Shown here one piece after another: positions 42,374 through 46,502 of a stretch of 64,000 nt of DNA. The position numbers were made by a program, and so were the translations under genes. Within the stretch, counting starts at the first letter, position 1. The number at the start of each line of letters is the position of its first letter. The stretch covers positions 1 to 64,000 of the forward strand of contig SUVJ01000003.1 of assembly GCA_015062045.1 (NCBI GenBank). Reading direction: 5' to 3'. The notes below the pieces were generated by a model, which was not told where the DNA came from, made no database searches, and was given only the letters and a program-made list of their open reading frames with translations. The stretch comes from Akkermansiaceae bacterium (GTDB taxonomy: Bacteria; Verrucomicrobiota; Verrucomicrobiia; Verrucomicrobiales; Akkermansiaceae).

Positions 42374-42535
42374 CAGCTGATGCTTTTTTTTGGGGGGGAA
42401 GACGGGAGCAATTCCCGTGCAAACGCATTAGGATTATGACACATTCATTTGGGTCAAATGAATGTGATGCGTGATGACATCATTACCTGATTTGAGCTTG
42501 ACATCATGCAGTGAGTTGATAGAATCCACAAAGTT

Positions 42536-43012
42536 ATGAAACAGGAAGCCCTTCTTAAATTACTGGAGACGGACGCACGCCTGAGCGACCGGCAGATTGC
42601 AGACCGCCTTGGCGTAAGTGTATCTGAAGTTGCAGCAGAGCGAGCTACCCTTGAGCAAGAGGGGCGCATCGTGGGGTACCAAACCATTGTCAACCATGAT
42701 GAAGTAGGTGTATCTGCCTTTATCGAGGTGCGCTGTACACCCGAGCGCGGTGACGGCTTTGACCGTTTGGCCCGCCGCATTGCTCGCTTTGATGAAGTTA
42801 AAAGTTGTTTCCTGATGAGTGGTGGATATGACCTGTTGGTGATGGTGGAGGCCGATAACCTGCAAGGGGTTGCCCGCTTTGTAAGCGAGAAACTCTCCAA
42901 CCTGCACGGCATTCTCTCCACTGCCACTCACTTCCTTCTTAAGACATACAAGCTCAACGGCCTGAAGTTCCATGATGAACCTGAAAGCGACCGCATCAGC
43001 GTAGCCCCCTGA
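42536..43012 (+). CDS. Lrp/AsnC-family transcriptional regulator
   Basis: LLKLLETDARLSDRQIADRLGVSVSEVAAERATLEQEGRIVGYQTIVN; C-terminal RAM-like domain. Confidence 0.92.
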   Translation: MKQEALLKLLETDARLSDRQIADRLGVSVSEVAAERATLEQEGRIVGYQTIVNHDEVGVSAFIEVRCTPERGDGFDRLARRIARFDEVKSCFLMSGGYDLLVMVEADNLQGVARFVSEKLSNLHGILSTATHFLLKTYKLNGLKFHDEPESDRISVAP

Positions 43013-43020
43013 TTACCACC

Positions 43021-44190
43021 ATGGACTGGAACCGCATACTATCCAAACAGGTTGTCGAGCTGCCTAAATCCGGCATTCGAGAGTTCTTTGACCTTGTTAC
43101 CGGCAGCAAGGATATCATCTCCCTGGGGGTGGGCGAGCCGGATTTTGTCACCCCCTGGAATATCCGTGAAGCCGCCATTACCTCTCTGGAGAAAGGGCGC
43201 ACCACCTACACCAGCAACTACGGCTTAGAGAGCCTGCGCCGCGCCATTGCCACATACGTGGAGGACTTCTTCAAGGTCTCTTACAACCCGCTTAACGAGA
43301 TTTTGCCCACCGTGGGCGTGAGCGAGGCCATTGACTTAGCCCTGCGTTGCCTGGTTAACCCCGGGGATGAGGTATTGTACCACGAACCAGCCTACGTGAG
43401 CTATGCCCCCTCCGTTCAACTGTGCTACGGCACCCCCAAGCCGGTGGAAACCGGCATTGACGACCTTTTTGCCCTTAACCCCGCCAAGCTGGAGGCAGCC
43501 ATCACCCCGCGAACCAAGGTGTTGATGCTCAACTTCCCCACCAACCCCACAGGCTCCATTGCCCCCACAGAAACGCTGGAGGCCATTGCCAAGATCTGCA
43601 TCAAGCATGACCTGTTTGTGCTGACGGACGAGATATACTCCGAGCTGCGGTACGATGGGGAAGAGCACACCAGCATAGCCTCCCTGCCCGGCATGAAAGA
43701 GCGAACACTGTTGCTGCACGGGTTCTCTAAAGCTTTTGCTATGACCGGGTTCCGCCTGGGCTATGCCTGCGGCCCCAAGGAGCTCATCGACCAAATGATG
43801 AAGATTCACTCCTACACCATGATTTGCCCCACCATCACCAGCCAGGAGGCAGGCATTGAAGCCCTGCAAAACGGCATACCCGCCATGCTGGAGATGCGCG
43901 ACAGCTACCACCGCCGCCGCGACTATATTGTGGGCAGATTCAACAACATGGGTATGGATTGCCACTTACCCGGCGGGGCTTTCTACACCTTCCCCTGCAT
44001 TAAGCGTTTCGGCTTAAGTTCCAAAGAATTTGCTATGCGTTTGCTCAAAGACGCCAAAGTAGCCGCCGTACCCGGCACTGCCTTTGGTACCTGTGGCGAG
44101 GGCTACCTGCGCTGCTGCTACGCCACCAGCATGCAGCTGCTCATAGAAGCCTGCGATAAAATGGAACGCTTTTGCTCGTCATTAACATGA
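43021..44190 (+). CDS. Class I/II PLP aminotransferase
   Basis: ISLGVGEPDFVTPWNIREAA; MLNFPTNPTGSIAPTETLEAIA; LTDEIYSELRYDGE; LLHGFSKAFAMTGFRLGYACG. Confidence 0.95.
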   Translation: MDWNRILSKQVVELPKSGIREFFDLVTGSKDIISLGVGEPDFVTPWNIREAAITSLEKGRTTYTSNYGLESLRRAIATYVEDFFKVSYNPLNEILPTVGVSEAIDLALRCLVNPGDEVLYHEPAYVSYAPSVQLCYGTPKPVETGIDDLFALNPAKLEAAITPRTKVLMLNFPTNPTGSIAPTETLEAIAKICIKHDLFVLTDEIYSELRYDGEEHTSIASLPGMKERTLLLHGFSKAFAMTGFRLGYACGPKELIDQMMKIHSYTMICPTITSQEAGIEALQNGIPAMLEMRDSYHRRRDYIVGRFNNMGMDCHLPGGAFYTFPCIKRFGLSSKEFAMRLLKDAKVAAVPGTAFGTCGEGYLRCCYATSMQLLIEACDKMERFCSSLT

Positions 44191-44202
44191 CGAGCAAAAG
44201 CG
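44167..44202 (+). terminator. Perfect 15-bp stem-loop overlapping the aminotransferase stop codon
   Basis: cgcttttgctcgtca-ttaaca-tgacgagcaaaagcg; stop codon (44188-44190) is in the 3' arm; no T-run. Confidence 0.6.
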
Positions 44203-44693
44203 ATTTACAATTTACCATTTACAATTTACAAAGTTTATTTTTTCTGAAGCAAACATTATAATGAATAAACAAAGCCTGCTTATTCGCACTAAAAATTTTT
44301 CTTTGAGAATCATTGCGCTGGCAGAAGAAATGCTCAAAAAAAAGGGAGTTTCTCGTATTCTTGCTGACCAAATTCTACGCTCGGGAACTGCGGTTGGAGC
44401 TAACTACCGAGCAGCATGCATTGCCAAAAGCGCCAAAGACTTTTTAAACAAACTCAAAATATGTGAAGAGGAGGCAGATGAAACAGTCTTCTGGTTAGAC
44501 ATGTTGATAGAATCCGGCACGATACGCGCAGAATTATTGTATAATTTGCGAGATGAAGCATCTCAACTTACCGCCATTCTGACTGCTTCTATCAAAACAA
44601 AAAAATTGCATATGCAAAAAAAGGATAATTTCTCCGAAAAAGCCTCTCATTAGCTTCGCTCATTTGTAAATTGTAAATGGTAAATTGTAAATC
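44202..44693. mobile_element. Candidate IR-bounded four-helix-bundle (S23/IVS-like) cassette
   Basis: Perfect 31-bp terminal inverted repeat gatttacaatttaccatttacaatttacaaa (44202-44232 / 44663-44693) enclosing one ORF. Confidence 0.65.
44261..44653 (+). CDS. Four helix bundle protein (23S rRNA IVS/S23 family)
   Basis: FSLRIIALAEEMLKKKGVSRILADQILRSGTAVGANYRAACIAKSAKDFLNKLKICEEEADETVFWLDMLIESG is typical of the family. Confidence 0.92.
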   Translation: MNKQSLLIRTKNFSLRIIALAEEMLKKKGVSRILADQILRSGTAVGANYRAACIAKSAKDFLNKLKICEEEADETVFWLDMLIESGTIRAELLYNLRDEASQLTAILTASIKTKKLHMQKKDNFSEKASH

Positions 44694-45402
44694 ACAACAA
44701 ATCTCTGACACACGCCTTTACCGCACCTGCGTATACCCCCTGGCTATTTTCATGGGGTTTACGCTGGTATTGGCATTTGGAGGGGAGGCGATTAAATGGG
44801 ACCACCCGGATGCCGCATGGTGGCAGCGGGCACCGGAGATGTGGCTTTACCCGCTGCAAACGCTGGTGTGCGGTGCCTGGATATGGCATGTTCGTAAAGA
44901 AATGCAGTGGGATTGGGCTCTGCGCCCCTGCCTGTTAGCCATACCGTTCGGGCTGGCAGGTATCGGATTGTGGATGATACCGTACTTTACCGGCTGGATA
45001 CCGAATGAGGGCAACGGTTTTATGCCCGAGCGGATATTCGGCGACGGCAGCGCCCTGACCCTGGTAGAATACGCCATGCGTTTTGTGAGAGCAGCTGTTA
45101 TTGTAGCCTTTGCAGAGGAGCTGTTTTGGCGCGGGTTCCTGATGCGCTGGTGCATCAACAGAGATTTTCCGCAAAGTGTAGCCATCGGCACGCACAGTTG
45201 GCTTGCATACAGTGTTACCACGGCAGCATTTATGCTGATACACAACCCGGCAGACTGGGCAGGCGCCTTTGTTTACGGCACGCTTACTTACATTTTAGTC
45301 ATTAAAACCAAGTGCATTACACCCGCCATTGTTATGCATGGGGTAGCCAATGCTACCATGGGCATTTGCGCCATCTGTTTCAACCTGCCTCACCTTTGGT
45401 AA
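44677..45402 (+). CDS. CPBP/CAAX-type intramembrane metalloprotease (pepcterm-associated type)
   Basis: FAEELFWRGFLMRW, AAFMLIHNPADWAGAFVYG, ITPAIVMHGVANATMG; called start codon lies inside the right IR. Confidence 0.85.
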   Translation: MVNCKSQQISDTRLYRTCVYPLAIFMGFTLVLAFGGEAIKWDHPDAAWWQRAPEMWLYPLQTLVCGAWIWHVRKEMQWDWALRPCLLAIPFGLAGIGLWMIPYFTGWIPNEGNGFMPERIFGDGSALTLVEYAMRFVRAAVIVAFAEELFWRGFLMRWCINRDFPQSVAIGTHSWLAYSVTTAAFMLIHNPADWAGAFVYGTLTYILVIKTKCITPAIVMHGVANATMGICAICFNLPHLW

Positions 45403-45414
45403 ATCTCTCTCATC

Positions 45415-46299
45415 ATGCAAGCATTCATTTTAGGTGCCGGTCTCGGCACACGCCTGGAGCCCCTCAGCCTCATTCTCCCCAAACCGCTCATGCCCGTCTT
45501 TCAAAAACCATTGGTGCAACACACCATGGATTCTTTTATGAAAGCAGGCGTTACAGAGTTTATTATCAACACCTCCACCCTCGAGTTCGCATGGGATAAA
45601 GCCTTCCCCTGCCCCGACCCGCAATACCGTGGCTGCCCCGTCACCTTCAGCCATGAGGATGAGCCCTTAGATTCCGGCGGCGGTGTGAAAAAGATTCTGC
45701 CGCTCTGGAAGGAGGGCCCCCTCATTGTCCACAACGGCGACATTTTAACGGACATCCCCTTGGCAGACCTGTTGGCGGAGCACCGCCGCAGCGGCAATCT
45801 GCTCACCATGGCCTTGCGCAGCATAGACGGCAAGCGCAATGTTGGTTTTGATGAAAGCACCGGCCGCATTACCGATATGCGGCACGCCTTGGGCATTAAC
45901 CCCGGCACCCACCAATTTGCAGGCACTTACATTATGGAGGCAGAGGTAGCACACCTCTTCCCCGCAGATGACAAGTTCTCCATATTCCCCATCTGGCTGG
46001 AGCTCATCAAACAAGGGCGCGCCGGCGGCGTTGTGTTCGACTGGGCCAACTGGCATGAAATAGGCACCCCACAAGGCTACCTCGATGCCATTTTGGAGCT
46101 CCCTAACAGCCAACGCATTCACCCCACCGCCAGTATCTCTGCCCTGGCTGAAATAGGGGAGGATTGCATGGTGGGGCAAGACGCCGTAATACCCGCAGGG
46201 TGCGAGCTGGATGACTGCATTGTGTGGCCCCGCACCCATGTTGACCCCGGCTCTTACCACCGCGCCATCCTCACCCCGCGTATTACCGTGCAGTTATAA
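45415..46299 (+). CDS. Sugar-nucleotide pyrophosphorylase-like nucleotidyltransferase
   Basis: MQAFILGAGLGTRLEPLSLILPKPLMPVFQKPL; VHNGDILTDIPL; C-terminal left-handed-helix-like segment. Confidence 0.9.
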   Translation: MQAFILGAGLGTRLEPLSLILPKPLMPVFQKPLVQHTMDSFMKAGVTEFIINTSTLEFAWDKAFPCPDPQYRGCPVTFSHEDEPLDSGGGVKKILPLWKEGPLIVHNGDILTDIPLADLLAEHRRSGNLLTMALRSIDGKRNVGFDESTGRITDMRHALGINPGTHQFAGTYIMEAEVAHLFPADDKFSIFPIWLELIKQGRAGGVVFDWANWHEIGTPQGYLDAILELPNSQRIHPTASISALAEIGEDCMVGQDAVIPAGCELDDCIVWPRTHVDPGSYHRAILTPRITVQL

Positions 46300-46502
46300 A
46301 GAACAGACGGATTTCCACCCTATGTTAGAGCAATCTCTAGCTTTTATCAAAAAAAACGCATACTTGCGCGGAATTTTCTTTTCATAAGGGGGTGGGGTGT
46401 GATAGAATGGGTGCAGCGTAGGAAGGCGCAACGGCAGTGCTGTATACAGATGACAACTGCGGGTGCCGGAACCACGAACACCATACTCAAAAAAAAACAC
46501 AT

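Follow-up and report, generated by a model that had tools for sequence, protein, structure and literature searches.

Mirrored heptad arrays bracket PF05635 four-helix-bundle genes across bacteria: a probable minimal mobile cassette and its relation to 23S rRNA intervening sequences

Genes of the PF05635 family, which encode S23/IVS-type four-helix-bundle proteins, mostly lie between mirrored arrays of tandem 7-nt units, and this arrangement is real, general and typical of a very widespread kind of cassette. The wider pattern is the main result of this work and extends far beyond the 492-bp unit at 44202-44693 of the window, i.e. the whole analysed stretch of 64,000 nt. The initial annotation had treated this unit as a one-off curiosity; the arrangement itself proved real, but it is a property of the protein family in general. 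The unit is, in our judgement, probably a minimal mobile cassette, composed of a four-helix-bundle gene and its cognate inverted heptad end arrays and moved by host enzymes.

The claim of a perfect 31-bp inverted repeat at the ends of the unit was confirmed, as the two arms are complementary at 31 of 31 positions and enclose 430 nt. The left arm (44202-44232, + strand; locus L010, period-7 tandem score 17) and its perfectly matching inverted partner on the right (44663-44693, − strand) are not one unique 31-mer, but consist of the four tandem 7-nt units ATTTACA-ATTTACC-ATTTACA-ATTTACA (ATTTACN). With up to three mismatches allowed, the inverted repeat gave 2 matches in the window against 0.00 expected in shuffles, and a chance palindrome as the origin of the arms was rejected on the basis of the shuffles and the genus survey. 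Inside the unit, the single ORF of at least 60 aa is the four-helix-bundle gene (44261-44653, + strand, 130 aa). Upstream, the left arm begins 12 nt past the stop of a class I/II aminotransferase gene (43021-44190, + strand, profile match). Downstream follows a gene of the CPBP/CAAX protease family (44677-45402, + strand, profile match, TIGR03008), and the first ATG of its listed ORF (44677-44679, + strand, ATGGTAAATTG...) falls within the right arm; the alignment of the protease to the relative G006 starts at the same first residue. A 16-bp hairpin, formed by the 3' end of the aminotransferase gene and an inverted copy (44167-44202), abuts the left arm. It is strong, and both of its arms stay complementary across species despite changes in the coding sequence. 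Relatives have it at this position whether or not they carry the cassette (without it in G030 and G035), so the hairpin is probably a host feature; as a general insertion signature it was rejected, being also missing beside the cassettes of G050 and G057.

The 130-aa product matched PF05635 with 54 bits (cut-off 33.8) and TIGR02436 with 79.2 bits (cut-off 24), which bears out the earlier assignment of the only gene of the unit to the S23/IVS type. PF05635 was its only Pfam match, while NCBIfam returned TIGR02436 and a weak, uncharacterised subfamily; no known catalytic domain was found in the protein. The nearest solved relative is 2rld, an entry with five chains; 2gsc (XCC0516), a more remote one, has been published as a homopentamer of four-helix bundles, as cited in PMC4990558. 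Within the family, dN/dS ranged from 0.04 to 0.32 in most ortholog pairs that were measurable, i.e. had substitutions at both kinds of site. Judged by these sequence comparisons, the protein is under purifying selection, and such low ratios argue that it is kept for its function.

Mirrored flanks, defined by an SW score of at least 13 between the upstream and downstream flanks of a gene, were found in 75.7% of 103 genus loci (all PF05635-type genes with enough flank), compared with 6.2% for mismatched pairs and 0.6% for dinucleotide shuffles. The corresponding values for 77 loci from Acidobacteria, Bacteroidota, Verrucomicrobia, Cyanobacteria, Chloroflexi, Clostridia, Proteobacteria, Nitrospirota and others were 66.2%, 3.6% and 0.3%. 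A period of 7 was detected on 128 of 206 genus flanks (shuffles 0) and on 106 of 154 multi-phylum flanks (shuffles 2). Heptad arrays also accompany plasmid copies in Nostoc, Gloeocapsa, Planktothrix, Anabaena, Chlorohelix, Bernardetia and Treponema, where most are visibly inverted around the gene. No 7-nt tandem array flanked any of 54 control genes of the window, and only one of these genes had a comparable inverted repeat. For about one quarter to one third of the family genes, no inverted partner was detectable within 350 nt.

The genome that contains the window holds four PF05635 genes, each bracketed by its own inverted repeats: ATTTACN in the window, TGTTTAA at L007, and arms with GC-rich spacers at the other two (TATCATGC-type repeats at L008, GTGAAACTT-type repeats at L009). 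A minority clade in the genus likewise carries longer units with small GC-rich hairpins between them. This second arm architecture, with 7-10-nt units (AAATTCTCTC, GTGAAACTT, GATTTCGTC) spaced by small variable GC-rich hairpins, was seen at L008, L009, L172-L176, L181, L191, L195 and L196, which form a separate protein clade. At L147, L170, L223 and L208, the array on one side has grown to roughly 10-40 units, which suggests slippage. At L168 (G054:C29), a near-identical pair of cassette genes is arranged head to tail with a spacing of about 460 nt.

The 7-nt unit varies between elements and is mirrored within each of them, with left and right units agreeing at 5.98 of 7 positions on average (3.97 at random). 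A polar theme resembling GAWTKNN is common to the 86 distinct units, with an information content (IC) of 4.09 compared with a shuffled maximum of 2.97. When genes at different sites encoded proteins of at least 70% identity, arm 7-mers were shared in 95-100% of the pairs; at low identity the share was about 5%. Conversely, occupants of the same site with proteins less than 60% identical had unrelated arms (own 21.9, cross 9.1), a difference that fades toward protein identity. Because similar genes share their arm 7-mers even at different sites, gene and arms are, on this comparative evidence, one unit that travels together, and both arms change together.

Empty and swapped sites were looked for in relatives. 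An ortholog of the aminotransferase gene was located in 56 of 59 genomes, and the junction between the aminotransferase and CPBP genes was compared in 30 loci. In 14 relatives (G001, G003, G009, G012, G023, G024, G030, G031, G033, G035, G036, G039, G041 and G058) the junction is empty and consists of both host genes and a short gap. G022 (L074) retains a decayed cassette, with most of the gene deleted and heptad remnants on both sides, so the cassette gene can be lost. Other relatives carry other arms at this site, namely TACGAAN (G002, and in the form GTACGAA also G038, G021 and G043) and ATCTACA/ATTTACA (G057, G050). The window unit therefore combines the two features by which we recognise a heptad-armed cassette, inverted 7-nt arrays on both sides and an empty or swapped site in relatives, although some of the empty and filled calls rest on short contigs. 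The sister species G002 has cassettes at the same four sites as the own genome, three of them with a different occupant. At these three, the proteins are 45%, 59% and 45% identical with saturated dS, while the flanking genes show dS values of 0.01-0.22; at the fourth, the proteins are 97% identical with a dS of 0.04. In a protein tree made by a quick method from few columns, with some weak forks, the window-site occupants form two separate lineages, and G002 belongs to the other one.

A reciprocal case is the C58 cassette of G002, for which gene-less orthologous sites exist in G000 (C42; flanks 97 and 94%), G006, G030 and G022, each with just one heptad-like array in the gap. Those of G000, G006 and G022 are loci L249, L250 and L253, respectively, single arrays that fill the intergenic gap in which a relative has the cassette. 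Most orthologues keep their position over species divergence, and jumps are therefore rare. The set contained no near-identical copies at new sites within one genome. A change of position is clearest for L137 relative to L121, L129 and L130, where the proteins are 87-91% identical and homology ends within about 40 nt of the gene; there are a few other cases.

Insertion junctions could be compared in Nostoc filled and empty pairs at two plasmid loci. The pNPUN02 cassette interrupts an ORF whose intact form is present in p057_G of strain C057, with 468 bp replacing 314 bp; in pC052_A, 431 bp of cassette replace 197 bp of target; and in N. flagelliforme, 497 bp replace 235 bp, with the same right end. 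The comparison of junctions proposed in the initial annotation thus yielded a loss of 197-314 bp of target in place of a target-site duplication, none of which was found in these pairs. Part of this loss could be later deletion. An IS element or DNA transposon was rejected, because the single ORF of the unit encodes no transposase and the Nostoc pairs lack a target-site duplication. The units sit in junctions between host genes, and these neighbours are mostly oriented like the cassette gene (100 '++' vs 10 '--'). As for the neighbourhoods, Planktothrix cassettes (L201, L202, L210) were seen inside DISARM operons, and cassettes between DUF1156 and Swt1-HEPN genes occur in two phyla (L200, L205).

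The proposed search of the genome for further repeats also returned dispersed arrays: with one mismatch allowed, ATTTACN arrays gave 64 matches in the own genome, compared with 2 for a reversed control pattern. Many of the arrays away from the gene sit inside a MITE. Inverted heptad pairs of roughly 190 bp elsewhere in the genome were rejected as cassettes, as they lie inside this MITE with its 17-bp ends CAGGGCAAACGCATTAG. The MITE is a multi-copy element of about 260 bp with inverted ATTTACN arrays inside (e.g. L011, L012, L015, L016, L025 around 1270-1560) and, by eye, target duplications of about 10 bp. We take it to be ISAs1-like; here, heptad arrays are nested in another element. Given further copies, arrays scattered through the genome, and sites that are empty or differently occupied in relatives, the earlier suggestion of a minimal mobile element without a transposase largely stands.

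Three other readings were weighed against a mobile cassette. The first builds on the mechanism preferred in the initial annotation and operates at the RNA level, as in rRNA intervening sequences (IVSs): the arms of the transcript would pair, the looped ORF would be cut out by RNase III or stabilised, and selection on the stem would keep the arms symmetrical. It fits the sense orientation between co-directional genes and the precedent of the Coxiella IVS, which has a terminal stem of 28 bp and is cut out by RNase III (PMC4990558), and a predicted RNA fold of 44150-44720 contains the 31-bp stem with a z of -6.8. However, a strong predicted fold is expected from any perfect inverted repeat, a stem does not need arms of tandem 7-mers with a common sequence theme, and empty and swapped sites require a DNA-level explanation anyway. 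Moreover, arm mismatches in 105 loci comprised 146 G-U and 182 A-C pairs; the lack of a G-U excess argues against a symmetry maintained as a sense-RNA stem, and for one arising from DNA-level recognition or homogenisation. Looping out and excision of the ORF thus find no support in the evolution of the arms, and we consider an RNA-level module quite unlikely.

Slightly less unlikely, but still not what we would expect, is an allelic diversity at fixed loci, in which host genes at conserved junctions are not mobile and, under diversifying selection, homologous recombination in the flanks swaps one divergent allele for another. The four filled sites of G002, three with other occupants, agree with this, as do protein lineages strongly tied to their sites (21 site changes, 82 rows at 17 sites). 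Several findings speak against it: some sites are empty, one Nostoc cassette interrupts an ORF from which 314 bp are lost, other elements lie within a DISARM operon or separate cas2 from cas1, and units alike in gene and arms turn up at unrelated positions. Flanking genes of low dS on both sides of a saturated cassette also contradict it. Finally, the arrays may be ordinary microsatellites, produced by slippage and accumulating in intergenic gaps, with the symmetry as a by-product of template switching and without a role for the gene. Heptamer repeats are indeed common in some bacterial genomes and were described without mention of a PF05635-type gene (PMC4679880, PMC4692102), and array length is highly variable (L147, L170, L223). 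Yet the arrays are absent from the flanks of the 54 window control genes, inverted repeats surround only 9 of 188 control neighbour genes (4.8%) compared with 76% for the PF05635 family, and the array sequence tracks the gene across sites, which leaves this explanation with very little probability.

For the mobile cassette, we propose that the protein, an Avd-like pentamer, recognises the heptads, probably in the form of DNA, and brings the cassette ends to host replication or repair enzymes. These would paste the unit into a target or exchange the resident unit at the same site; they would also have to break and join the strands, given that the protein lacks any known catalytic domain. The two arrays of a unit would stay matched because the same protein must bind both, because template switching between the inverted arrays homogenises them, or both. 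Same-site swaps could also be allele exchange via homologous recombination through the flanks. The 23S rRNA IVSs would then be copies that landed in rRNA and are removed from the transcript by RNase III. In a broader version, a PF05635 gene is typically the only gene in a pan-bacterial class of mobile elements that end in gene-specific inverted heptad arrays. Such elements would be moved or exchanged without an encoded recombinase, by host enzymes that replace the target, and both the 23S rRNA IVSs and many bacterial heptamer repeats would derive from them. We put this forward tentatively, as a serious possibility that falls somewhat short of probable.

Three old puzzles converge here: the role of the S23/IVS family, the origin of 23S rRNA IVSs, and the nature of the 7-nt repeats scattered through cyanobacteria, xanthomonads and others. 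If each gene is the core of a unit ended by its own heptad arrays, the family represents a large unrecognised class of minimal elements, and genes now listed as cas-associated or DGR-like accessories would have to be read differently.

For comparison with known systems, RAYT/REPIN systems consist of REP elements with a Y1 transposase. The window unit resembles them in a gene flanked by inverted short repeats and in dispersed solo repeats in the genome, but it encodes a four-helix bundle in place of a (Y1) transposase, and its repeats are 7-nt units in tandem where RAYT/REPIN systems have palindromic REPs. Avd of diversity-generating retroelements has a related pentameric four-helix-bundle fold, and PF05635/2GSC is related to Avd 4DWL (PMC10053308). 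Unlike such a retroelement, the unit has no reverse transcriptase, template or variable repeat and encodes one protein; its neighbours are the aminotransferase, the CPBP protease and a nucleotidyl transferase. Published heptamer repeats, such as TAACTGA of Beggiatoaceae (PMC4679880), GGGAATC of Xanthomonas and Nostoc (PMC4692102) and the cyanobacterial STRR, are 7-nt tandem arrays in intergenic DNA, like the cassette arms. Those of Xanthomonas often form convergent inverted pairs, and Xanthomonas also has the family member XCC0516 (2gsc). In contrast to these repeats, the arrays described here bracket four-helix-bundle genes; a text search of PMC4679880 and PMC4692102 gave no mention of a four-helix-bundle or S23 gene, and the open-access journal literature searched contained no link between PF05635-type genes and heptad repeats. 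Genes annotated as 23S_rRNA_IVP, the same family as the window gene, have been listed as CRISPR-associated (PMC3936711). One family gene lies between cas2 and cas1 of Anabaena cylindrica (L209, pANACY.01) and, as it comes with 7-nt arrays, reads as an inserted cassette and not as a cas gene; those listed in PMC3936711 may be such insertions.

The closest relative is the 23S rRNA IVS of Coxiella burnetii, which carries three tandem heptamers GACAGAT and a GACAGAA before an S23p-type ORF, in a copy number that varies from strain to strain, and ends in a stem of 28 bp that RNase III cuts (PMC4990558). The same source cites older ideas of IVSs as transposition remnants and nowhere links the heptamers to mobility. 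As 28 bp is the length of four heptads, the Coxiella stem may itself be built of heptads. Both units contain a gene of the same protein family with heptamers beside the ORF and are similar in size (428 vs 492 nt) and in their terminal inverted repeats (28 vs 31 bp). The window unit, too, has an S23p ORF inside complementary termini, but it differs in lying between two protein genes (aminotransferase and CPBP protease) and not in 23S rRNA, in its intact ORF, in the purifying selection seen in its family, and in its own arm sequence; no Rfam match was found in 42500-46500. The initial description as a free-standing IVS-like cassette is therefore largely upheld, the likeness to IVSs and the mobility being retained and the RNA-excision mechanism finding no support. 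The cassette seems to represent, in free-living form, the elements that interrupt some bacterial 23S rRNA genes, and since tandem heptamers accompany this kind of gene in the Coxiella IVS as well, the rRNA IVSs look like one landing site of such cassettes.
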